Source: an uncultured Chlorobiota bacterium
GTDB taxonomy: Bacteria; Bacteroidota; Ignavibacteria; UBA10030; UBA6906
Assembly: GCA_900696645.1 (NCBI GenBank)
Contig: CAADGV010000033.1
Coordinates: 124,001-188,000 of the forward strand
DNA length: 64,000 nucleotides
Direction: 5' to 3'
Made by a program: the position numbers and the translations under genes. The notes beneath the pieces were generated by a model, which was not told where the DNA came from, ran no database searches, and saw nothing but the letters and a program-made list of their open reading frames with translations. Below are positions 9,374 through 50,209 of the stretch, in pieces (within the stretch, counting starts at the first letter, position 1; the number at the start of each line of letters is the position of its first letter).

Positions 9374-11560
9374 ATGACGAATCGAAAGTACAAGGAAAGG
9401 CTTGACGATCTTCTGCTCGTATGCCGGAAACATCTGGCCCGTGTGGATGAAACGCTGATACGCCGGGCATTCGAATTCGGTTTCAACGCCCACCGCTTCG
9501 ACAAGCGCGCATCCGGAGAACCGTTCTTCGATCATCCGTATGAGGTGGCCAGAATTGTTGCGAAGGAGATATCCCTTGATGATATTTCCATTGCTGCCGC
9601 GTTGCTGCACGACGTAGCAGAAGACACCGAATATCAAATAAAAGATATCAGGGCAGAGTTCGGTGATACAATTGCAAACATTGTCGATGGCGCAACAAAG
9701 ATTTCCGGCATTACATTTACCAGCAACGAATCGACACAGGCCGAAAACTACCGGAAGATGCTGCTTTCGATGGTGAGTGACATCCGCGTGATGTTGGTGA
9801 AATTTGCCGACCGCCTCCACAATATGCGTACGATCGACTTTCTTCCCCCCGAAAAACAGCAGCGGATTGCGAGGGAAACAATGGATATCTATGCGCCATT
9901 TGCTCACCGCTTCGGGCTTGCGAATATCAAATGGGAGATGGAGGATCTTGCGTTCAAGACGTTGAATCGGGAAGAGTACGATAGTATCGCCCGTGAACTG
10001 AAGTCCCGCCGCAGGGAGCGTGAGCAGTACCTCAAGAAATTCGCGGCCCCGATTGAGAAGCGACTTAGGGAGGAGAATATTCCGTACGACCTCAGCGCCC
10101 GACCGAAACATATCTACAGCATCTATAACAAGATGGTCAAGAGGAACAAGCCTCTTGGCGAGATCTACGATCTCTTTGCTGTGCGAATAATACTTGATTC
10201 GAGCGAAGAAGTGTGCTACAGAGTTCTCGGCATCATTTCGTCAACATATACAGCGAATGATAGCCGGTTCAAAGACTATGTAACCCGACCGAAGAACAAC
10301 GGATACAAATCCATACACACCACTGTTATTGGCCCCGAAGGGAAGATGGTTGAAATTCAGATACGCACCAAGGCAATGCACGCTATCGCTGAGCGCGGCG
10401 TTGCGGCGCATTGGGCGTACAAGGAAGAAGTCGAGAAGATTGACGAGAAGTTGAATAACTGGCTTAACTGGATCCGCGATATCATTGAAAGCGTAGGCGA
10501 GGAGGAGAAGGCCGGCGGTCAAATGATGGAGAGTTTCAAGCTGAGTTTGTTTCAGGACGAGATTTACGTCTTTACACCGAAAGGCGATCTGAAAATTCTG
10601 CCTCGAAACGCTACACCCGTTGATTTTGCCTATGAAATTCACTCCAAGGTTGGCGATCACTGCCTTGCGGCGAAAGTCAGCGGCCGGATTGTACCTCTTG
10701 ATACGAAATTACGCAGTGGCGACCAGGTGGAAATCATCACATCAAAGAACCAAACCCCGAACCCGGATTGGGAACAGTTCGTCGTCACTCATAAGGCAAA
10801 ATCGCATATACGCCGATGGGTAAAGGAGGAACAACGAAAGGCAATTGAGGAGGGGCGCGCCATTTGGGAAAAGAAAGTGAGGAAAGCAAAACTCAGCATC
10901 AACGACGATGACTTGAATGAGTTCTTGACGAAACAAAGAATCGAGAATTCCGGAAAGTTCTTTCATGCAATTCGGGAAGAAAAGATCGATGTGGACACAA
11001 TCATCAAACTCATTCAAGACGACCAGAAACACCCGACGGCAGTTGTCACACAAGAAGGCAAGATCGAGGGATTGTTCGACAAGTTCATCACGTCGGCGCG
11101 TGGTATCTCGCCCGGTATTTTGCTTGACGGATCCCGGGATAACTACCTTCACAACTATGCAAAGTGTTGCAATCCGATTCCCGGCGATCCCGTCGTCGGG
11201 TTCGTTACTCAGGGTGAAGGTATCAAGATTCACCGTCGCTCATGCCGCAATATTCAACTGATGCTTCAAATGGAACATGAACGCATTGTTGAAGTCGGCT
11301 GGCCGCCAAGCTCGGGGGGTCTGTTTGTTTCTGCTGTTCGGATTACGGGGGAGGATCGCAAAGGGCTGCTAAATGATATTACGCAGGCAATCAGTAATTT
11401 CCAGAATACGACCATACTAAGCGTAAACCTCGATGCGAAGGATTCGATTTTTCTGGGAATGTTCGTACTAGGCGTTCGGGATACCGAGCACGTGAACCGC
11501 TTGTTGGAACGGCTTCGGAGGATCAAAGGTGTAACACGAGTTGAACGGCCCGAACAGTGA
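9374..11560 (+). CDS. rel: bifunctional (p)ppGpp synthetase/hydrolase, RelA/SpoT family
   Basis: Stringent-response enzyme. Domains in order: HD hydrolase (H54, H79-D80 and E83-D84 in ALLHDVAEDT intact), synthetase (about 235-345, with RFKDYVTRPKNNGYKSIHTTV), TGS (about 400-460, VFTPKGDLKILPRNATPVDFA), helical and conserved-cysteine region (YAKCCNPIPGD, near 595) and a C-terminal ACT domain. 728 residues is the full long-Rel length. Both active sites look intact, so it should make and degrade alarmone. Its stop codon overlaps the start of ruvX by one base. Confidence 0.95.
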   Translation: MTNRKYKERLDDLLLVCRKHLARVDETLIRRAFEFGFNAHRFDKRASGEPFFDHPYEVARIVAKEISLDDISIAAALLHDVAEDTEYQIKDIRAEFGDTIANIVDGATKISGITFTSNESTQAENYRKMLLSMVSDIRVMLVKFADRLHNMRTIDFLPPEKQQRIARETMDIYAPFAHRFGLANIKWEMEDLAFKTLNREEYDSIARELKSRRREREQYLKKFAAPIEKRLREENIPYDLSARPKHIYSIYNKMVKRNKPLGEIYDLFAVRIILDSSEEVCYRVLGIISSTYTANDSRFKDYVTRPKNNGYKSIHTTVIGPEGKMVEIQIRTKAMHAIAERGVAAHWAYKEEVEKIDEKLNNWLNWIRDIIESVGEEEKAGGQMMESFKLSLFQDEIYVFTPKGDLKILPRNATPVDFAYEIHSKVGDHCLAAKVSGRIVPLDTKLRSGDQVEIITSKNQTPNPDWEQFVVTHKAKSHIRRWVKEEQRKAIEEGRAIWEKKVRKAKLSINDDDLNEFLTKQRIENSGKFFHAIREEKIDVDTIIKLIQDDQKHPTAVVTQEGKIEGLFDKFITSARGISPGILLDGSRDNYLHNYAKCCNPIPGDPVVGFVTQGEGIKIHRRSCRNIQLMLQMEHERIVEVGWPPSSGGLFVSAVRITGEDRKGLLNDITQAISNFQNTTILSVNLDAKDSIFLGMFVLGVRDTEHVNRLLERLRRIKGVTRVERPEQ

Positions 11561-11982
11561 TGCAGTATCCGGGCAAAGTACTTGGCATTGACTATGGCAG
11601 CAAGCGCATTGGCATCGCAGCAAGCGACCCAACCCGCATGATTGCGCAAGCGGTCAACACAATTGAGAACAATGAACGAACGTTTGACAAGCTTGTGCAC
11701 ATCATTGCCCAGGAAGATATTACGTTGATTGTGGTAGGAATGCCGTACGGCCAAGACGGCGGAAAGAGCAGCAAAGCGATTGAAGTTGAAGCATTCATTG
11801 GCAAGCTGAAACTGTTGACATCGATTACAATTGATACGTGGGATGAAAGCTATTCGTCTGTCAAGGCACATCAAGCATTTCTTGACACAGGGATGAAAAA
11901 GAAGAAACGCCGGCAGAAACACCGCGTGGACGTAATGGCCGCCAGACTAATGCTGCAGGAGTACCTTGACAATCACAGATGA
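11560..11982 (+). CDS. ruvX: Holliday junction resolvase-like protein RuvX/YqgF
   Basis: 140 residues, RNase H fold. The N-terminal motif VLGIDYGSKRIGIAASD carries the first catalytic aspartate; VVGMPYGQDG and WDESYSSVKA give the later conserved acids, and D at the end of KHRVDVMAARLMLQEYL completes the set. Family roles are pre-16S rRNA 5'-end processing (YqgF) and possible junction resolution. ATG 11560 overlaps the rel stop (TGATG); a GTG one codon earlier is an alternative start. The Lys/Arg-rich insert near residue 113 is a loop before the last motif. Confidence 0.9.
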   Translation: MQYPGKVLGIDYGSKRIGIAASDPTRMIAQAVNTIENNERTFDKLVHIIAQEDITLIVVGMPYGQDGGKSSKAIEVEAFIGKLKLLTSITIDTWDESYSSVKAHQAFLDTGMKKKKRRQKHRVDVMAARLMLQEYLDNHR

Positions 11983-11992
11983 ACCTGCCCTG

Positions 11993-12940
11993 ATGCAGAA
12001 CACGTCACATCCTGCGCGATTGTGGCATTGGGTGAAGGCGAACAAAGTTAAGTCGGTATTTCTGGTATTCGGATTTGTGGTTCTGTACGAGGCTCTTACA
12101 ATTCCATGGTTTGGTGTAGCCGGCCTTAAGGAGAACAATCCAGCCGAAACAGCTTTGATGCGACAGCGGCTTGGTGAGGCGGACAGTGAGGGGAAAAGTC
12201 TGAGGACCGTGCATTCCTGGGTCCCGTTGTCACGGATTCCTCGGCACGTTATCAACGCCGTTGTTGTTGCTGAAGATGGGATGTTCTGGGAACACAACGG
12301 ATTCGACTGGTATGAGTTTCAGCAATCGTTGCGAAAGAATTGGGAAAGAAAAAAAGCAGTACGTGGAGCAAGTACAATTACCCAGCAACTTGCAAAAAAT
12401 CTCTATCTCTCAACATCCAAAGATCCCGTCAGGAAGATAAAGGAATGGATCATAACGTTTCTACTCGAAAGGAATCTCGACAAGAATCGGATTCTTGAGA
12501 TTTATCTGAATGTTATTGAATGGGGGAGAGGGATTTTCGGAGTCGAGGCGGCAGCAAGAACGTATTTCGGACGTTCGGCGAGTTCGTTGTCTGTCGAGCA
12601 GGCTATAAGACTTGCGGCTGTAATTCCCAGTCCGTTGAGACACAAGCCAACGGACAATACCCGATGGGTGACGTTTCGCAGGAATATTGTTGCAGCGAGG
12701 ATGCAGGGACGCCGCTACTATGAACCTGAAGTGGAGCCTGAGGAGGAAGAAGAAAGTGAAAGCATAGAATCACTACCGAAGGAGACAGAATCAAGCCAAC
12801 AACAGATCGAACCCCAGCCCGCCGACACAGGGGATGTGTCGCTCGATGCGCAGATTAATCGAGAAGCGATGCCAAATGATACGACTGACAATGAAAGGGG
12901 TGGCAGCAATGACGTACAAAGACGTGAATACGCTAATTGA
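11993..12940 (+). CDS. mtgA: monofunctional peptidoglycan glycosyltransferase
   Basis: Polymerises lipid II into glycan strands. One N-terminal transmembrane helix (about residues 20-38) precedes a GT51 domain with VVVAEDGMFWEHNGFDW (catalytic Glu), RGASTITQQLAKNLYLS and LERNLDKNRILEIYLNVIEWGRGIFGVEAAA. No transpeptidase domain. ATG 11993 is used; a TTG at 11966 would overlap ruvX more. The last ~70 residues form an unusual acidic, Gln/Ser-rich tail not found in classical MtgA. Its 3' end overlaps the next gene by 32 bp. Confidence 0.9.
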   Translation: MQNTSHPARLWHWVKANKVKSVFLVFGFVVLYEALTIPWFGVAGLKENNPAETALMRQRLGEADSEGKSLRTVHSWVPLSRIPRHVINAVVVAEDGMFWEHNGFDWYEFQQSLRKNWERKKAVRGASTITQQLAKNLYLSTSKDPVRKIKEWIITFLLERNLDKNRILEIYLNVIEWGRGIFGVEAAARTYFGRSASSLSVEQAIRLAAVIPSPLRHKPTDNTRWVTFRRNIVAARMQGRRYYEPEVEPEEEEESESIESLPKETESSQQQIEPQPADTGDVSLDAQINREAMPNDTTDNERGGSNDVQRREYAN

Positions 12941-31635: not shown

Positions 31636-31748
31636 CTACATCTTGTGGTTGGATGCTTGTTGCACATTTTAACTATGCTATTTTGCCCCTGATATATCTT
31701 GGAACGGCCTATTTCAGCCTAAAGTGTAACGTGGCATCTAGTTTAGCG

Positions 31749-31985
31749 ATGAACTCCCGTCTCTGTGGCTACGAACCCGACCCCTCGAACGAGTGTACAT
31801 GCACACCACAACAAGTTTGAAATACATATCGAAGAGTTCGGAGCCGCTGCTCGACCGGATTGATCTTCATATTGATGTGCCAGCCGTAGAATACGAGGAA
31901 CTCTCAAGCAGGAGAGTGGAGAGAAATCAGACGAAATGCTTGAGCGGGTAATCCGGGCGCAGGAGATTGAGTCAAGACGATCCTT
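31749..31985 (+). pseudogene. relic of a second comM/yifB gene
   Basis: Inside a 640-bp stretch with no intact gene. Translation in successive frames gives [23 protein letters not shown], then [17 protein letters not shown], then [22 protein letters not shown], all homologous to residues ~350-430 of ComM (23148-23386). A stop and frameshifts break it (one A lost in the run CTCTCAAGCA). Bases 31843-31888 are identical to 23243-23288 (46 bp), while the flanks diverge strongly. The CTPQQ stretch is closer to general ComM than the resident CTQLM, so this looks like the remnant of a separate copy rather than a recent duplication. Confidence 0.78.
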
Positions 31986-32174
31986 GTCGCGTGATTGCGT
32001 TCACGGTGGCCCACAGCCGATCGATTACATCTCACTTCAGGGCTCACAAAGTGATAATGGATGGGTGAGCAGTCTTTCTCTACTGCTTGACATTCACACT
32101 CTTCTGCAGCATATTCTGTCAGAGCCGATTCGCCTGCCTGGCTTTTCACATTTCAAGACAATCTCACATGTGTA
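31986..32174. other. intergenic stretch with candidate promoter
   Basis: No credible gene. TTGACA (32087-32092), 17-bp spacer, CATATT (32110-32115) could be the promoter of the small gene at 32175, with a 50-nt leader. Confidence 0.45.
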
Positions 32175-32585
32175 ATGGGACAGCAGCAGATTCTGTTTCT
32201 CATACTTGGTGTCTGCCTTCTCGGCATAACCGCTTCTGCAAGTATTATCATGGTTCAAACCGACCACGACTCTTTCGAGCGTCATGTCATTGATACTGAT
32301 TTCCGCGAACTCGAGGTTCGTGCGCGGGCATATCGTTCACGTTCCTTTGAGGAAGGGGGAGGGGATGGGACGTTCATAGGATTGACAGCAACGCCGCAGG
32401 GAATCGAAAAGCTGACACAAAATCGCTTCACGCCGTATGCCGAATACTCCATCGTGAAGAGCGGCAATTCACGCTCTGTTCAGATTGCCTGCATCGGGTA
32501 TTCGCCGGGGAAGAATCCACGAAAACCAATCCACATGGTCATGACTGTGTATGCTGATTCCACTCAAATAGCCGTCCTCAACTGA
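32175..32585 (+). CDS. small leaderless pilin-like protein
   Basis: 136 residues. The N-terminus is hydrophobic from residue 5 (MGQQQILFLILGVCLLGITA), followed by a polar helix and a beta-rich C-terminal half (RVARAYRSRS..., AEYSIVKSGNSRSVQIACIGYSP). The layout recalls mature type IV pilins or pseudopilins but there is no positively charged leader with a prepilin peptidase site. It resembles in style the three genes at 47756-50209. No Shine-Dalgarno is evident. Function unknown. Confidence 0.6.
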   Translation: MGQQQILFLILGVCLLGITASASIIMVQTDHDSFERHVIDTDFRELEVRARAYRSRSFEEGGGDGTFIGLTATPQGIEKLTQNRFTPYAEYSIVKSGNSRSVQIACIGYSPGKNPRKPIHMVMTVYADSTQIAVLN

Positions 32586-42043: not shown

Positions 42044-44212
42044 ATGATACGAATCTTTACCATTTGCTCAGTCCTCGTCTGCATGTTCTTTGTTTTCCCT
42101 GTATTGTCTAATGCTCAAGTCGATGAAGTGCTGGTCACGATTCCGTCGGTTTCGGCAACAGAAGCTGTCCGTGTGGCCCCGTCACCGATTCATTTCTACC
42201 ATCGCTTGGAAGACGGTTATCTCGCGGGAACAAGCAGGATCACAACATCATATCTCAAGAAGAGAGGGATAGATGTTGTGGTTGTGGATGATCAACCTTG
42301 GAGTGAATCCTACGCAATAGTGGCGAAGCCGCATCCGGGCAAAGCAGATGTAAGTCTGGACAATTTGACGGGACGAGTGTTACTTGCAGGCAACGATTTC
42401 AGGCTCGTCAAAGGATCGGAATCCTACTTTGAGCGCTTGCGTGAACAAGGTTTTGTATGTGTGGAAATTGATAAATGGGAAGTGCCCATTGATGCAACAA
42501 CAACCCGTCTACCTGAGAACATTGGTCAGCATCGCTACGGCCTGATCGACACACTCATTTCATTTGTATCGGATACTTCCATCAGGGAATACATACAGGC
42601 GATGCAGAATTTCGGAACCCGCTACTGGAATAATGCGAATCGGGATTCTGTATCAAAGTGGGTACGTGCAAAGTATCTCGAAACAGGTATCGCAGATGTC
42701 AAACTGGACAGCTTCCAGTACAGCAGCACATGGCAAGCGAATGTTGTTGCCACGATCCCCGGAACTGTTGATCCGTCGAAGGAGCTTATAGTAGGGGGCC
42801 ATCATGATTCGTACAATTCGGCAAACCAGAATCTTGCTCCCGGTGCAGACGATAATGCCTCCGGCGCGGCCGGGGCAATCGAGATGGCCCGGGTTCTGAA
42901 ACTGAGAAATTACCAACCCGCGTACACGATGCGTTTCATGGGATATGCCGCTGAGGAAGCCGGCCTTCGTGGCAGTGCAAGCTATGCACAACGGGCGAGG
43001 GCTGCGAATCGGGATATCCGATGCATGCAAAACTACGACATGATTGCAAACCGGTATCAGGCCCCGACTGACCAGAGCGTATATGTAGTATGGTATACAA
43101 CGAGTGAAGCATACCGGGACTTGCACGCAACGATGATGCAGATGTACACGCCGCTTATTCCGGTTCCCACAACGTCATATCGCTCGGGAAGCGACAGCTA
43201 CTCATTCTGGCAGCAAAACTATCGGACGGTATTTATCATTGAACGAAACTTCAGTCCGTATTATCACAGCCAGAACGATCTCCTGCAATATCTTGACATG
43301 ACATATTGTGCCAACATTGTCAAGTCGGGCTTGGCAATGTTGGTTACGCTCGACCAAATGCCCGCCTCGGTTGCAAATCTCCGTGTGCTCGATCGGGGGA
43401 ACGGGACGTCATTGCGTGTTAGCTGGGACAGCGTCCAGGTTCCCGATTTTGCATTGTACAGAATCTATGTCGGTAGAATCCCCGGTGTGTATGACACGAT
43501 CTACACACAAACCACACGCTCGCGTACAATCACCGGATTAACAGAAGGCACGTCATACATTATCGGCGTCTCGATCGTTGATTTGGTTGGACGGGAAGGA
43601 ATGGTTACGGAATTGACCGGCGTTCCCCGAAGTGTGCCCTTGCCTCCCGCAGGACTCGCTACGGAGGGGCTGTCCGGATGTGTCAAGCTGAATTGGCGCA
43701 AGAATACAGAAATGGATATGCTGGGTTATAATGTGTACAGAACGATGGTGCCTATTCCCGGTGCGCCGTTCATGATGCTCACATCAGCACCAACTCTCGA
43801 CACACTCTGGATGGATAGTCTTCAGAATACAGGCGTCTATGAGTATTACGTCACGGCAGTTGATTCACAAATGCATGAAAGTGCCCCGTCGGATACAGTG
43901 CAGGGGAGTGTCCTAACGGGTATCAACCAAGAAACGGAGATCTCGCCATTCGCTTTCAGGCTTTATGGCAATTATCCGAACCCGTTCAATCCTTCCACCG
44001 GCATCCGTTATGAGATCGGGCAGTCCGGCCATGTGGAGATTCGGGTATTCGATATGTTGGGCAGGGAAGTTGACATTCTCGTCAGCGAGCGAAAGTCCGC
44101 AGGCTCGTACGTAGCAATGTGGAATGCACGAGAAGCAGCAAGCGGTGTTTATTACGTTCAGCTGAAAGCTGAAGGGCGAATGGCCAGCCATCGAATGGTC
44201 TTGATGAAGTGA
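42044..44212 (+). CDS. T9SS-secreted M28-family zinc peptidase
   Basis: 722 residues. Signal peptide (1-25, VLSNAQ). M28 aminopeptidase-type catalytic domain (about 170-435) with metal ligands and catalytic residues in order: H253/D255 (GGHHDSY), D269 (PGADDNASG), E304-E305 (AAEEAGLRGS), a DMI near 334 and a late His in YYHSQND. Two fibronectin-III-like domains follow (about 445-625), then the T9SS sorting domain from residue 643 (NYPNPFNPST). It would cleave peptides outside the cell. AGGAGGAG sits just before ATG 42044. Confidence 0.9.
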   Translation: MIRIFTICSVLVCMFFVFPVLSNAQVDEVLVTIPSVSATEAVRVAPSPIHFYHRLEDGYLAGTSRITTSYLKKRGIDVVVVDDQPWSESYAIVAKPHPGKADVSLDNLTGRVLLAGNDFRLVKGSESYFERLREQGFVCVEIDKWEVPIDATTTRLPENIGQHRYGLIDTLISFVSDTSIREYIQAMQNFGTRYWNNANRDSVSKWVRAKYLETGIADVKLDSFQYSSTWQANVVATIPGTVDPSKELIVGGHHDSYNSANQNLAPGADDNASGAAGAIEMARVLKLRNYQPAYTMRFMGYAAEEAGLRGSASYAQRARAANRDIRCMQNYDMIANRYQAPTDQSVYVVWYTTSEAYRDLHATMMQMYTPLIPVPTTSYRSGSDSYSFWQQNYRTVFIIERNFSPYYHSQNDLLQYLDMTYCANIVKSGLAMLVTLDQMPASVANLRVLDRGNGTSLRVSWDSVQVPDFALYRIYVGRIPGVYDTIYTQTTRSRTITGLTEGTSYIIGVSIVDLVGREGMVTELTGVPRSVPLPPAGLATEGLSGCVKLNWRKNTEMDMLGYNVYRTMVPIPGAPFMMLTSAPTLDTLWMDSLQNTGVYEYYVTAVDSQMHESAPSDTVQGSVLTGINQETEISPFAFRLYGNYPNPFNPSTGIRYEIGQSGHVEIRVFDMLGREVDILVSERKSAGSYVAMWNAREAASGVYYVQLKAEGRMASHRMVLMK

Positions 44213-44219
44213 AAGACAG

Positions 44220-45917
44220 ATGATAGCGAGGCCAAAACTTCTGTTTGCAATTGTGGCGGTTTGCGCGCTTACGATCAGAACCGTTGCCCAGGTTCCGTTC
44301 AGTACATCACCCACCTGGATTTCGACCGACGTTGCAAACTACTCGACAGGTTGTGCTTGGGCGGATATCAACCAGGACGGGTGGCTTGATCTCGTTGTCG
44401 CAAACGGCAACGATATGGCCCGCCAGCGCGTAGTTGTATATTTGAATAATGGAAATGGAACTCTGCCCGCAACACCTTCCTGGCAATCGTCTGATGTTGA
44501 CTATCACGGACATCTTTCCGTCGGTGATGTGAACGGCGACGGATATCCTGATGTTGCCGTGTCGGTGTACATCGGGGGCGCCGGATTCAGTCAGAAGGGG
44601 AAAGTGAAACTCTACATAAACAATAACGGCACGCTTTCGTCCAACCCGGCGTGGGTTTCTTCTGATGCAGTGTACTCGTTCAGTTGCGCGTTCGGTGATG
44701 CCGACGGCGATGGCGACTTGGACCTTGCCGTTGCCGGAGGTGAATCGTATAACAACCGATCTGAGCAGAACAGAATCTACTACAACAGATCGGGGGTTCT
44801 GGATTCACTTCCGCAATGGAAGGCACGCGATGCGGGGTACAGCTACGACGTCACGTGGGCTGATATCGACAATGACGGTGATCTCGATCTCGTCTTCGCG
44901 AACGAAAAAGGCTCGAACCGGGTTTTCATGAACTACGGCGATACGATTGGCACAGTGCCAATTTGGCTTTCCGCCGATGGAGCGCTTAATGCGAATTCCC
45001 TATTCGTTGCTGATCTCGATGGTAACGGCCTGCTCGACCTGGCAGTCTCCGACAACAATCAGTTGGGAGGAACCGGAAGGTTCAAACTGTATCGAAATCA
45101 AGGAGGAAGACTGGATTCGATTCCGTTTTGGACTTCGTCGTTCTCAGGATACGGTTCGGGAATAAATCTCGCGGATATCGACTATGATGGCGATCGTGAT
45201 TTGATAACCGGCGGCTGGTGGAATCCACTTCGCATATACACAAATCAGAACGGGAGTTTCACATCAACTCCGCAATGGACTTCCGCCACAAACAGCGTTG
45301 TTGAAGCAATCGTTTTCGGCGACTATGATAATGACGGATTGGATACGCTGAATCTCCAATTCGTCAGTGACGGTCAGAAGAAACTGTACTATTTGCCAAG
45401 GGCGCCCATTCAACGCATCCTTCGTCTGACGTGGAATGGCGATCCCGATTCGGTTGCGCCGTATTGTTACGATCTTGAGAATGGCTGGATCAGCTTTTCG
45501 CTTCCGGCAGGTCCGGGTACACTCATCGACGTGCGGGCGGTTGTTTCGCACGATCTCGATTTTGCTGTCAGCAATTGGGATAACAGTATCGGGAACTACG
45601 TCTTCAAAAATACCATAACCGTTTCCGTCGGCGGGGAGAATCACACTCTATCTCAATTCAGATTGTATCAGAACTATCCCAACCCGTTCAATCCCTCAAC
45701 ACACATTACGTATGAAATAGAAAGTAGCGGGCTGATTGCTTTGAAGGTATATGACTTGCTCGGCCGACAGATTGCGATTCTTGTGAATGAGGAAAAACCC
45801 CGCGGCGTGCATACGATTCAATGGAAACCGCAGGAATGGCTTTCAAGCGGCGTGTATCTTATAAGACTGGAGGCAAGCGGGAGAACTGCCACGACTCGAA
45901 TGGTTTTGTTGAGATAG
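44220..45917 (+). CDS. T9SS-secreted FG-GAP/VCBS-repeat protein
   Basis: 565 residues. Signal peptide (1-25, TIRTVAQ), then seven or so propeller repeats, each around D-xNQDG / DxDGDGDLD calcium loops (ADINQDGWLDLVV, VNGDGYPDVAV, ADGDGDLDLAVA, DNDGDLDLVFAN, DLDGNGLLDLAV, DYDGDRDLITG), a beta domain, and the sorting domain from residue 485 (NYPNPFNPST) ending RMVLLR. Starts 7 bp after the M28 gene and is closed by a terminator. Surface or secreted protein of unknown ligand. Confidence 0.87.
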   Translation: MIARPKLLFAIVAVCALTIRTVAQVPFSTSPTWISTDVANYSTGCAWADINQDGWLDLVVANGNDMARQRVVVYLNNGNGTLPATPSWQSSDVDYHGHLSVGDVNGDGYPDVAVSVYIGGAGFSQKGKVKLYINNNGTLSSNPAWVSSDAVYSFSCAFGDADGDGDLDLAVAGGESYNNRSEQNRIYYNRSGVLDSLPQWKARDAGYSYDVTWADIDNDGDLDLVFANEKGSNRVFMNYGDTIGTVPIWLSADGALNANSLFVADLDGNGLLDLAVSDNNQLGGTGRFKLYRNQGGRLDSIPFWTSSFSGYGSGINLADIDYDGDRDLITGGWWNPLRIYTNQNGSFTSTPQWTSATNSVVEAIVFGDYDNDGLDTLNLQFVSDGQKKLYYLPRAPIQRILRLTWNGDPDSVAPYCYDLENGWISFSLPAGPGTLIDVRAVVSHDLDFAVSNWDNSIGNYVFKNTITVSVGGENHTLSQFRLYQNYPNPFNPSTHITYEIESSGLIALKVYDLLGRQIAILVNEEKPRGVHTIQWKPQEWLSSGVYLIRLEASGRTATTRMVLLR

Positions 45918-47699: not shown

Positions 47700-47716
47700 C
47701 GGCACTCTATTTGCAT
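47700..47716 (+). promoter_or_regulatory. sigma-54 (-24/-12) promoter of the pilin-like cluster
   Basis: CGGCAC-N5-TTGCA: GG at 47701-47702 and GC at 47713-47714 with the obligatory 10-bp gap, and the -12 TTGCAT complete. Only the first base of TGGCAC differs. Predicted transcription start near 47726, 30 bp before the first gene. Confidence 0.68.
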
Positions 47717-47755
47717 ATAGCACAGGTAAGCAAAAACAAATAAAGTGTATCAGGC

Positions 47756-48280
47756 ATGAGTACGGGACAGACAATTCTGACGATGGGGGCATTCATGCTA
47801 CTCACGACGATTCTGCTCAACTTCTATTCCGTGTTGGCAAAGTCCAGCGATATTGTAGAGAGTGGCCAGGATGGCATTCTCGCAACAACGCTTGCTGTAT
47901 CGTACACGGAAATTGCCCAGGGCCTTGCTTTCGATGAAATCACGGATACATCTGACGCTGCAATCGGGAACGCAAACCTGCTGACGACGTCGGCCAATCT
48001 TGGCCCGGATAACTATCTAGAAACAAGTCTTGAAACGTTCAACGACTTTGATGATTTCAACAACTTCTCGATAGAGAAAGAGGCATCGGGTACGAATCGC
48101 AGATTCAGAACCACGTTTAAGGTGTATTACGTTGATCCTACTAACGTGAACAATACTACCACAACGAGAACATTCACGAAACGAATGGATCTCACAACGT
48201 GGCGCACGTTTCCACCGGTAACCGGAAAAGTTGACACATTGCGAATGTCTGTTGTGCTTGGCTATTTTCATTTCGATTGA
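47756..48280 (+). CDS. pilin-like membrane protein, cluster gene 1 (PilV-like position)
   Basis: 174 residues. Hydrophobic from residue 7 (ILTMGAFMLLTTILLNFYSVLA), then an amphipathic helix (SSDIVESGQDGILATTLAVSYTEIAQGLAFDE) and a beta-rich C-terminal part. The order 'hydrophobic N-helix, polar helix, beta head' is that of type IV pilins and pseudopilins, but there is no Lys/Arg leader or G|F-x4-E peptidase site. First gene behind the sigma-54 promoter and 9 bp from the next. I recognise no family. Confidence 0.65.
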   Translation: MSTGQTILTMGAFMLLTTILLNFYSVLAKSSDIVESGQDGILATTLAVSYTEIAQGLAFDEITDTSDAAIGNANLLTTSANLGPDNYLETSLETFNDFDDFNNFSIEKEASGTNRRFRTTFKVYYVDPTNVNNTTTTRTFTKRMDLTTWRTFPPVTGKVDTLRMSVVLGYFHFD

Positions 48281-48289
48281 GAGGTACGA

Positions 48290-48907
48290 ATGGGAGCAAT
48301 GATTGACCTTATTGCCTCTACGCTGTTAGGGGGGGCTTTATTGCTTATCGTGTTAAACGCAAACGATATCGCGGTAGAAGCGCAAAGTATACACAGCGGT
48401 GACGTTCTTGTGCAGGAGATGCTCGTATCGACAGTTCGCCTGATTGAAGGCGAATTTCGGAATATGGGGTTCGGGGTTCCGGATGAAATGACGACGGTAT
48501 TGCACGCTGATACTTCACACATATCATTCTTGTGTGACCTGGGGCGTGATGGTGGTTTCATAGACACCGTGTCATACTACATCGGGCCGACGAGCGAGTT
48601 GCTGAGAACCCAAAATGAACTCGACCGCTATTTATATCGGAAAATCAACACGGAAGAACCCTTGAAGGTGGGTGTTGTGACCATCTTTGATTTGAGATAT
48701 TCAGCGCGATCCGGTGAAGAATTACCGACACCTGTGCCAAGCGACAGGAAGTCGGAGATATATGTAGTTGAGGTAACGGTAGAAGTACAGAATCCCTACG
48801 CAATCAGCAAGAGGGAAGCGGAAATCAATCCCGGTGAAAGAACGGCGCACTTTTCGAGTGCATTGTGGCAGCAGACGCGACTCGCATCACAAAATTCACG
48901 ACGTTGA
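48290..48907 (+). CDS. PilW-like pilin-related protein, cluster gene 2
   Basis: 205 residues. Hydrophobic N-helix near residues 5-22 (DLIASTLLGGALLLIVLNA) followed by a helix, EAQSIHSGDVLVQEMLVSTVRLIEGEFRNMGFGVPDE, which has the 'LxxDLRxxGFG' type of pattern seen in minor pilin PilW and GspJ. Then a beta-rich head. No prepilin leader or cleavage site. GAGAGG lies just upstream of ATG 48290. Distant similarity to PilW is my inference; role in envelope or pilus tip is possible. Confidence 0.65.
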   Translation: MGAMIDLIASTLLGGALLLIVLNANDIAVEAQSIHSGDVLVQEMLVSTVRLIEGEFRNMGFGVPDEMTTVLHADTSHISFLCDLGRDGGFIDTVSYYIGPTSELLRTQNELDRYLYRKINTEEPLKVGVVTIFDLRYSARSGEELPTPVPSDRKSEIYVVEVTVEVQNPYAISKREAEINPGERTAHFSSALWQQTRLASQNSRR

Positions 48908-48925
48908 CGCAAGCAAGGAGGAGGA

Positions 48926-50209
48926 ATGGTAGGTAAAGCATCTCTTATTGTTGTGATGGGCTTTGGATCGATTCTCGGGTATATTGCTCTGAACCTGAAT
49001 CGATCTGCGACAAATGCAGTCGGCAATATGTCGACATACTATGAAGCAACAGCTTCTCACAACATCGCTCTGGCCGGAGCCAATGTCGGCCTGGCAAAGT
49101 TCTACACGGATACAACATGGTTCGGCACAATCTCGCAGAATCTTTCGAGTACGATGGGAGGCAGCTTCACTGTCACCAATACCGATATCGGTGGAAACAA
49201 AGTGCGGCTGAGAAGCATCTCCACCTACGTAATTCCTCCCCCGAACGCCGAAACACTCCGAGATACTGTCGAAGTCTACTTCGACAAAACACGATACAAC
49301 AGTTTCTCCATGTTTGCCTGGATGACACAGTTCGAGGGAAATGTTTTTTGGATTACCGGTGATACGGTATGGGGGCGGATTCATTCCAATGGGAATCTTC
49401 ACGTCAATGGACGACCGACATTTTATGAAAAGGTGACAACCTCAAAGGCATTCAATCCAAAGCCGGGGACGGGAACTAACAAAGCGATATTCAAAAAGGG
49501 ATACGAAACAGGAGTTGCGCCCATTGATTTTCCGGACGACCTTACGGCAGTGATAGATGCCTCGACATCGGGCGGGGTAAGGTATACCGAAAGAATTTTC
49601 GTCGATTTGGTGCCGGGTACATCCGCGAACAACGACGGCATTGCAGTCATCAGACGCACACCGTCAGATCCATCTCCCGACACTATTGCATTAAGCAATC
49701 CGGCGTTCAACGGGGTTATCCTCTCGACCGACACGGTACGGGTCAAGGGAACGCTTGATGGTCGGCTCACAATCGCCTCCCTTAGAGATCTGTATATCGA
49801 CGACAATGTTCGATACGAGCAGAATCCGAGAACAATACCGAACAGCGATGACTTGCTGGGTCTTGTTGCAGAGAAAAACATCATTGTAGCAACCAATCCT
49901 GCAAACAATACGCATTGTGAGATTGACGCATGTGTGTTTTCTCGCGACGGTTCGTTCGTGGCTGAAAAGTACAATACTCGCCCGGTAAGCGGGGAATTGC
50001 GCTTCTACGGCTCGATTGTGCAGGATACAAGAGGGCCGGTCGGTACATTCTCCGGCTCCAATATCATCAGCGGGTTCTCCAAGCGGTACCGCTATGATGA
50101 TCGGCTTTCGAATCCCGCGTTTCGTCCTCCGTACTATCCCGGCTTCTATGTCAAGACCTATGCCATCACTAATTGGTGGGAGAGCTTCCGTGTGCCTGAA
50201 ATAAGGTAG
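48926..50209 (+). CDS. PilX-like large pilin-related protein, cluster gene 3
   Basis: 427 residues. N-helix (SLIVVMGFGSILGYIALNL, about 5-24) then a polar helix (ATNAVGNMSTYYEATASHNIALAGANVGLAKFY) of the PilX/GspK 'AxxAAEAGLxxA' kind, then a large beta-rich ectodomain (about 60-427) with FAWMTQFEGNVFWITGDTVWGRIHSNGNLHVNG, which looks like the DUF4900-type polymer-binding fold. No prepilin leader. AAGGAGGAGG precedes ATG 48926 and the gene starts 18 bp after gene 2. Ectodomain function unknown. Confidence 0.68.
   Translation: MVGKASLIVVMGFGSILGYIALNLNRSATNAVGNMSTYYEATASHNIALAGANVGLAKFYTDTTWFGTISQNLSSTMGGSFTVTNTDIGGNKVRLRSISTYVIPPPNAETLRDTVEVYFDKTRYNSFSMFAWMTQFEGNVFWITGDTVWGRIHSNGNLHVNGRPTFYEKVTTSKAFNPKPGTGTNKAIFKKGYETGVAPIDFPDDLTAVIDASTSGGVRYTERIFVDLVPGTSANNDGIAVIRRTPSDPSPDTIALSNPAFNGVILSTDTVRVKGTLDGRLTIASLRDLYIDDNVRYEQNPRTIPNSDDLLGLVAEKNIIVATNPANNTHCEIDACVFSRDGSFVAEKYNTRPVSGELRFYGSIVQDTRGPVGTFSGSNIISGFSKRYRYDDRLSNPAFRPPYYPGFYVKTYAITNWWESFRVPEIR

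Follow-up and report, generated by a model that had tools for sequence, protein, structure and literature searches.

Three adjacent genes on the forward strand of the window, i.e., the whole stretch of 64,000 nucleotides analyzed here, very probably specify the priming complex at the tip of a type IV filament that is built from leaderless subunits. The first gene, P1 (47756..48280), encodes a leaderless minor pilin of 174 aa (MSTGQTILTMGAFML...), which is GspI/PilV-like by position. The second gene, P2 (48290..48907), encodes a leaderless GspJ/XcpW/PilW-like minor pilin of 205 aa (MGAMIDLIASTLL...), and the third, P3 (48926..50209), a large leaderless minor pilin of 427 aa (MVGKASLIVVMGF...), which is GspK/PilX-like by position. 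The open reading frames that a preliminary description had reported at 47756, 48290, and 48926 were all present, with gaps of 9 bases between P1 and P2 and 18 bases between P2 and P3.

According to a 2023 review of type IV filaments (T4F), pilins, prepilin peptidase, extension ATPase, and platform protein are the four core proteins in every system, and prepilins "invariably" possess a class III signal peptide, a hydrophilic leader ending in Gly or Ala before the hydrophobic helix (PMC10191384). As predicted from the genes and one model of P2, the present system looks like a T4F variant without class III signal peptide and peptidase. It is called a type IV filament variant, neither a standard type IVa pilus nor a T2SS, because the machine and the fold of a T4F were found and the signal peptide and the peptidase were not.

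Translation starts, conservation, and promoter of the cassette

In the translated open reading frames of the window, P1, P2, and P3 each opened with a hydrophobic helix. The nearest in-frame stop codons preceded the ATGs of P1, P2, and P3 by 4, 3, and 6 codons, respectively, with no intervening start codon, and the residues between stop and ATG were SVSG, EVR, and RKQGGG. Because the stops are close and no start lies between, a longer leader-bearing form of the three proteins is excluded, and with it the longer start codon with a conserved prepilin cleavage site that the preliminary description had named as the finding that would speak against it. The start sites were further compared in 161 homologues, comprising 46 P1, 46 P2, 42 P3, and 27 major-pilin distinct sequences. 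Between the preceding in-frame stop and the start codon, the median distance was 4–6 codons over the four groups and 5–6 codons over P1, P2, and P3, and an upstream start able to give a leader of 4–30 aa was present in 4 of the 46 P1, 3 of the 46 P2, 2 of the 42 P3, and none of the 27 major-pilin sequences. Misassigned start codons, with a canonical prepilin leader hidden upstream, are thus hardly credible given the stops 3–6 codons upstream and the same pattern in nearly all homologues; this explanation was rejected by the sequence, barring unusual decoding.

The hydrophobic segment mostly started 2–7 residues past the Met in the P1, P2, and P3 homologues. The observation made in the preliminary description was confirmed. 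The absence of a charged leader held for P1 and P2, where no sequence carried K/R before the helix (0/46 each), and also for P3 apart from a small deviation, as exactly one K/R preceded the helix in 42/42 sequences. The N-terminal signatures were M[NSG]TGQT(I/L)LT for P1, M..xxLD(I/L)I for P2, and M(V/G/F)G(K/R) for P3. An acidic residue within positions 4–9 was found in all 46 P2 sequences and in none of P1.

The order and orientation P1-P2-P3 were constant in the fetched loci of Bacteroidota-group genomes. The search for homologous clusters showed that the cassette recurs, with a P3 homologue in 49 of the 60 relatives searched. The window's genome (G000) carried two cassettes detached from the machine genes, one in the window and one on contig 24, and in the P3 tree the window cassette fell into one group with those of the family f2 operons. 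In locus L031 (1015-3211), a contig with a window-type cassette carried another P1-P2-P3 cassette that was deeply diverged (173, 182, and 370 aa), which suggests that several cassette lineages exist. In the window, two large secreted proteins are encoded 5' of the cassette (42044-45917, forward strand). Judged by eye, they have C-terminal domains of the YPNPFNPST... type, which we take to be the kind found on type IX secretion cargo.

The preliminary description had also placed a sigma-54-type −24/−12 box, CGGCAC-N5-TTGCA, ahead of the cassette. It was found as an exact match at 47700..47715 on the forward strand, 56 bases upstream of P1, and the sister species had it as well. Taken as a pattern alone, the box was near chance, with one match in the window against 0.57 expected, and beyond the genus most relatives had no exact match. 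In the window's genome, a perfect −24/−12 box was also located about 59 bases upstream of the start of the paralogous cassette on contig 24. Strong boxes were found upstream of 32% of the P1 homologues and 22% of the major-pilin genes, compared with 3.5% of the control genes (exploratory p of about 8e-5 and 7e-5, respectively). This enrichment is supportive and falls short of proof, because orthologues are non-independent and the controls perhaps lie inside operons. RpoN was encoded in the genome, and the cassette is probably expressed under sigma-54.

Pilin folds and the assembly machine

The AlphaFold2 model of P2, made from seven sequences, had a pLDDT of 76.7 and consisted of a 56-residue helix (residues 2–57) and a beta head, which is the lollipop fold of type 4 pilins. 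Its best structural matches were the GspJ-type pseudopilins XcpW, EpsJ, and GspJ and the type IV-like pilin TTHA1219, with Z of 10.9–12.3 over 121–168 residues, and the next unrelated match had Z of 3.9. The best E in Foldseek was 4e-3. The model thus has the GspJ fold of the middle subunit of the GspI-J-K complex. By sequence, the P2 profile matched TTHA1219 weakly (E 0.038). In this alignment, the LLE glutamate of TTHA1219 corresponded to Asp6, which is invariant in P2. In our own reading, this glutamate would be at the Glu5 position and Asp6 of P2 would be the Glu5 equivalent. If the alignment is taken as given, the short forms of P2 start one residue before the mature pilin.

For P1, no Pfam family was found, and profile searches of PDB sequences with P1 and P3 gave nothing relevant. 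The sole Pfam match among the three proteins was a weak one of P3 to DUF4900, at E ≤ 1 in 20 of 27 homologues (best 4.5e-6). The structure prediction, which gave a GspJ-type model for P2, was poor for P3 (pLDDT 45.7), with an N-terminal helix (2–61) and a large beta-rich domain at low confidence. On the basis of their position, their size, and the architecture of their N-termini, P1 is the putative GspI and P3 the putative GspK. Because P2 folds like GspJ/XcpW, a tip complex of the GspI-J-K (PilV-W-X) kind is the best reading of the cassette. The PilV/PilW/PilX-like layout described earlier was borne out by the GspJ-type matches of the P2 model, by a gene order and size gradient that fit I-J-K, and by the alignment of Asp6 on Glu5.

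The major pilins of the lineage are small proteins that start with MGQQQLL and are likewise leaderless (27 sequences), and two of them are encoded in an operon on contig 5 of the window's genome. Residue 2 was Gly in 27/27 sequences, and no acidic residue was found at positions 4–9 (0/27), where the Glu5 of the type IVa pilus was looked for. Furthermore, no positive charge preceded the helix in the 27 major pilins or in the 46 P1 sequences. Glu5 has been described as common, not universal, and the positive-inside rule has been invoked for prepilins (PMC10191384). The best PDB match of the major-pilin profile was geopilin, at a weak E of 0.016, and GspG, PilE1, and PilA5 were weaker still. The major pilins also matched ComP_DUS at 9e-5. 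Residue 9 was aligned with mature residue 6 of geopilin 2m7g, which makes the major pilin about three residues longer than a mature pilin. As for the cassette, it was shown, at the level of the predicted translations, that translation of P1, P2, and P3 begins where a mature pilin would start or no more than about three residues away.

A third leaderless major-pilin-like gene of this genome, and the fourth leaderless pilin-like gene of the window, was an orphan distant from the machine operon (32175..32585, forward strand; 136 aa, MGQQQILFLILGV...). Its product matched the major-pilin profile at E 4e-38 and, in an alignment with 24 homologues, shared 35% identity with the major pilin of the operon. 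Directly 5' of it (31700-32000, forward strand) lies what looks by eye like a frame-broken piece of a ComM/YifB-type gene.

In relatives, the cassette was found inside a single operon in families f2 (L041-L044) and f5 (L046, L052) as well as in L079, L085, L086, and L099. The order in these operons was MGQQQLL major pilins, PilC-like, PilB-like, P1-P2-P3, PilT-like, PilM/N-like, PilO-like, and secretin. Contig 5 of the window's genome possessed the same pilin-PilC-PilB-PilT-PilM/N-PilO-secretin operon with the cassette absent from it. The Pfam matches of this operon were T2SSF at 5.9e-29, T2SSE at 6.6e-98 and 8.6e-35 (two ATPases), and Secretin at 2.3e-26, so the extension ATPase and platform protein expected of a T4F were found. 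The second T2SSE ATPase (8.6e-35) was of the PilT type, and the PilB-like protein matched a solved PilB in the PDB at 3.6e-84. Of the further type IVa components, the PilT-type ATPase and the secretin were accompanied by PilM/N at a weak match (PilN E 0.08) and by PilO, assigned by position and length only; against PDB sequences the PilM/N-like protein gave chance matches only. A PilB-like gene was present in 54 of the 60 relatives. Regarding neighboring assembly ATPases, PilB and PilT genes flank the cassette in relatives and are located on contig 5, separate from the cassette, in the window's genome.

Some further genes were observed around these operons. In contig 5 (L073), a second PilB-type ATPase (10208-12043) lies directly 5' of the leaderless pilin operon, as does a lone receiver-domain response regulator (9828-10208), and a second PilB-like gene was similarly placed in several relatives. 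In most operons, the gene after the secretin encodes a conserved protein that resembles a lipoprotein (484 aa in L074 1808-3262, contig 5; some relatives have a longer form), and it is possibly a secretin partner or an adhesin.

The fact that the cassette is unlinked to the machine operon in the window's genome counts against the tip-complex reading. Together with the absence of Glu5 from the major pilins and the large beta-rich domain in the low-confidence model of P3, it would suit pilin-derived anchored envelope proteins that no longer polymerize and form a static complex, whose role might be adhesion or structure. Such a complex is improbable, however, because the cassette lies between the PilB and PilT genes in the operons of several families and the PilB- and PilT-type ATPases have strong domain matches. 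Moreover, in a phylum sample of 296 genomes, P2 was present in 96, 95 of which also had a leaderless major pilin, and this near-perfect co-occurrence (95/102) likewise speaks against a static complex.

Prepilin peptidase and the proposed assembly

The prepilin peptidase families PF01478 and PF06750 and the N_methyl prepilin family PF07963 were undetected in the window's genome, which is 100% complete, and the same searches did detect these families in control genomes. Among the 60 relatives, PF01478 was found in 5 and undetected in 55, while PF06750 was found in 5 and PF07963 in 6. Four relatives (G013, G027, G044, and G054) carried the peptidase gene together with those of an N_methyl prepilin and a GspE-like protein, all three within about 3 kb and apart from the leaderless operon. 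This group looks like a separate T2SS-like module resembling the Cytophaga system (PMC5553014). In the phylum sample, leaderless major pilins occurred in 101 of the 296 genomes and PF01478 in 38, with both in 11, so 90 of the 101 had no detectable PF01478. Accordingly, neither of two usual T4F features was observed, i.e., the class III signal peptide (the 161 homologues start at the helix, and PF07963 is undetected in the window's genome) and the dedicated prepilin peptidase.

The preliminary description had proposed a system that resembles pilin assembly and bypasses PilD. The bypass is supported at genome scale because the peptidase and the N_methyl prepilins were undetected in the window's genome and most relatives. 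A mere resemblance was not upheld, as the genome encodes a genuine machine, leaders are absent from the major pilins as well, and the operon of this machine includes the cassette in relatives.

The pilins might be only apparently leaderless if a peptidase that is not recognized removed an ultra-short leader, cutting after a near-N-terminal Gly (MSTG/Q, MG/A, MVG/K, MG/QQQ). Many P1 and P3 proteins and all of the major pilins have a Gly at residues 2–4, and the last residue of a class III leader is Gly or Ala (PMC10191384). We nevertheless regard such processing as unlikely, because PF01478 and PF06750 are undetected in the window's genome and 55 of the 60 relatives, and the operons of L041-L044 hold no additional unassigned gene. 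In addition, P2 often starts with MA, MT, MS, or MN, some P3 proteins start with MLSK, and a hydrophilic, charged leader is absent. It is likely that the major and minor pilins of this lineage are never processed by a peptidase and that cleavage and N-methylation are not intrinsic to T4F assembly.

A possible course of assembly for such a leaderless filament is as follows. SRP/Sec would insert the subunits so that the N-terminus stays in the cytoplasm, and methionine aminopeptidase would take off the initiator Met of those with a small residue 2, which is always the case (Gly) in the major pilin. Neither PilD cleavage nor N-methylation would take place. The P1-P2-P3 (I-J-K) complex would form in the inner membrane, where the invariant Asp of P2, the presumed Glu5 equivalent, perhaps pairs with the invariant Lys/Arg of P3. 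This complex would prime assembly by PilC/PilB, the MGQQQ-type major pilins would be added below it and pass through the secretin, and PilT would drive retraction. Insertion with the N-terminus inside and Glu5-type docking are left unexplained by this scheme, because the major pilins have neither an acid at the Glu5 position nor an N-terminal positive charge.

Relation to known systems and significance

The system was compared with known T4F machines. Like the type IVa pilus (PilB/PilC/PilT/PilM-N-O/PilQ; FimU-PilV-PilW-PilX), it has ATPases for assembly and for retraction, a platform protein, a secretin, PilM/N-like and PilO-like proteins, major pilins of small size, and a minor pilin cassette in V-W-X order. 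Unlike that pilus, it is without class III signal peptide, prepilin peptidase, and major-pilin Glu5. With GspI-GspJ-GspK of the T2SS (XcpV-W-X, EpsI-J-K) it shares the GspJ-type model of P2, the I-J-K order, and the size gradient; however, the cassette is leaderless and linked to PilT/T4aP-type genes, not to GspC/L/M, and I and K are assigned by position. The T2SS-like system CHU_3195-3199 of Cytophaga hutchinsonii, which also belongs to a Bacteroidota-group lineage, likewise has a T4F-type secretin, ATPase, platform, and pilins, but a Peptidase_A24 prepilin peptidase, CHU_3197, is encoded there (PMC5553014). The Cytophaga-type N_methyl-PF01478-GspE module is found in four of the relatives studied here, separate from the leaderless system.

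In Melioribacter roseus, pilT, pilQ, pilB, and pilC were reported, pilA and pilD were not found, and the set was called probably incomplete (PMC3534657). These four genes have counterparts in the present system, which differs in its leaderless pilins. Leaderless pilins would explain why pilA and pilD were not found in that organism, which is a candidate link. In the open-access journal articles that were searched, no prior description of leaderless pilins, the missing prepilin peptidase, or DUF4900 was found.

T4F machines are found in genomes by way of leader-bearing prepilins and the prepilin peptidase, both of which are considered universal. Because these markers are used for detection, leaderless systems may be missed or called incomplete, as may have happened in Melioribacter roseus. 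A natural PilD-free system lets the roles of leader cleavage, N-methylation, and Glu5 be asked, as well as how membrane orientation arises if the N-terminus carries no positive charge and how pilins and machine evolved jointly. If this reading is true, a leaderless T4F lineage would be present in roughly a third of the sampled genomes of the phylum.
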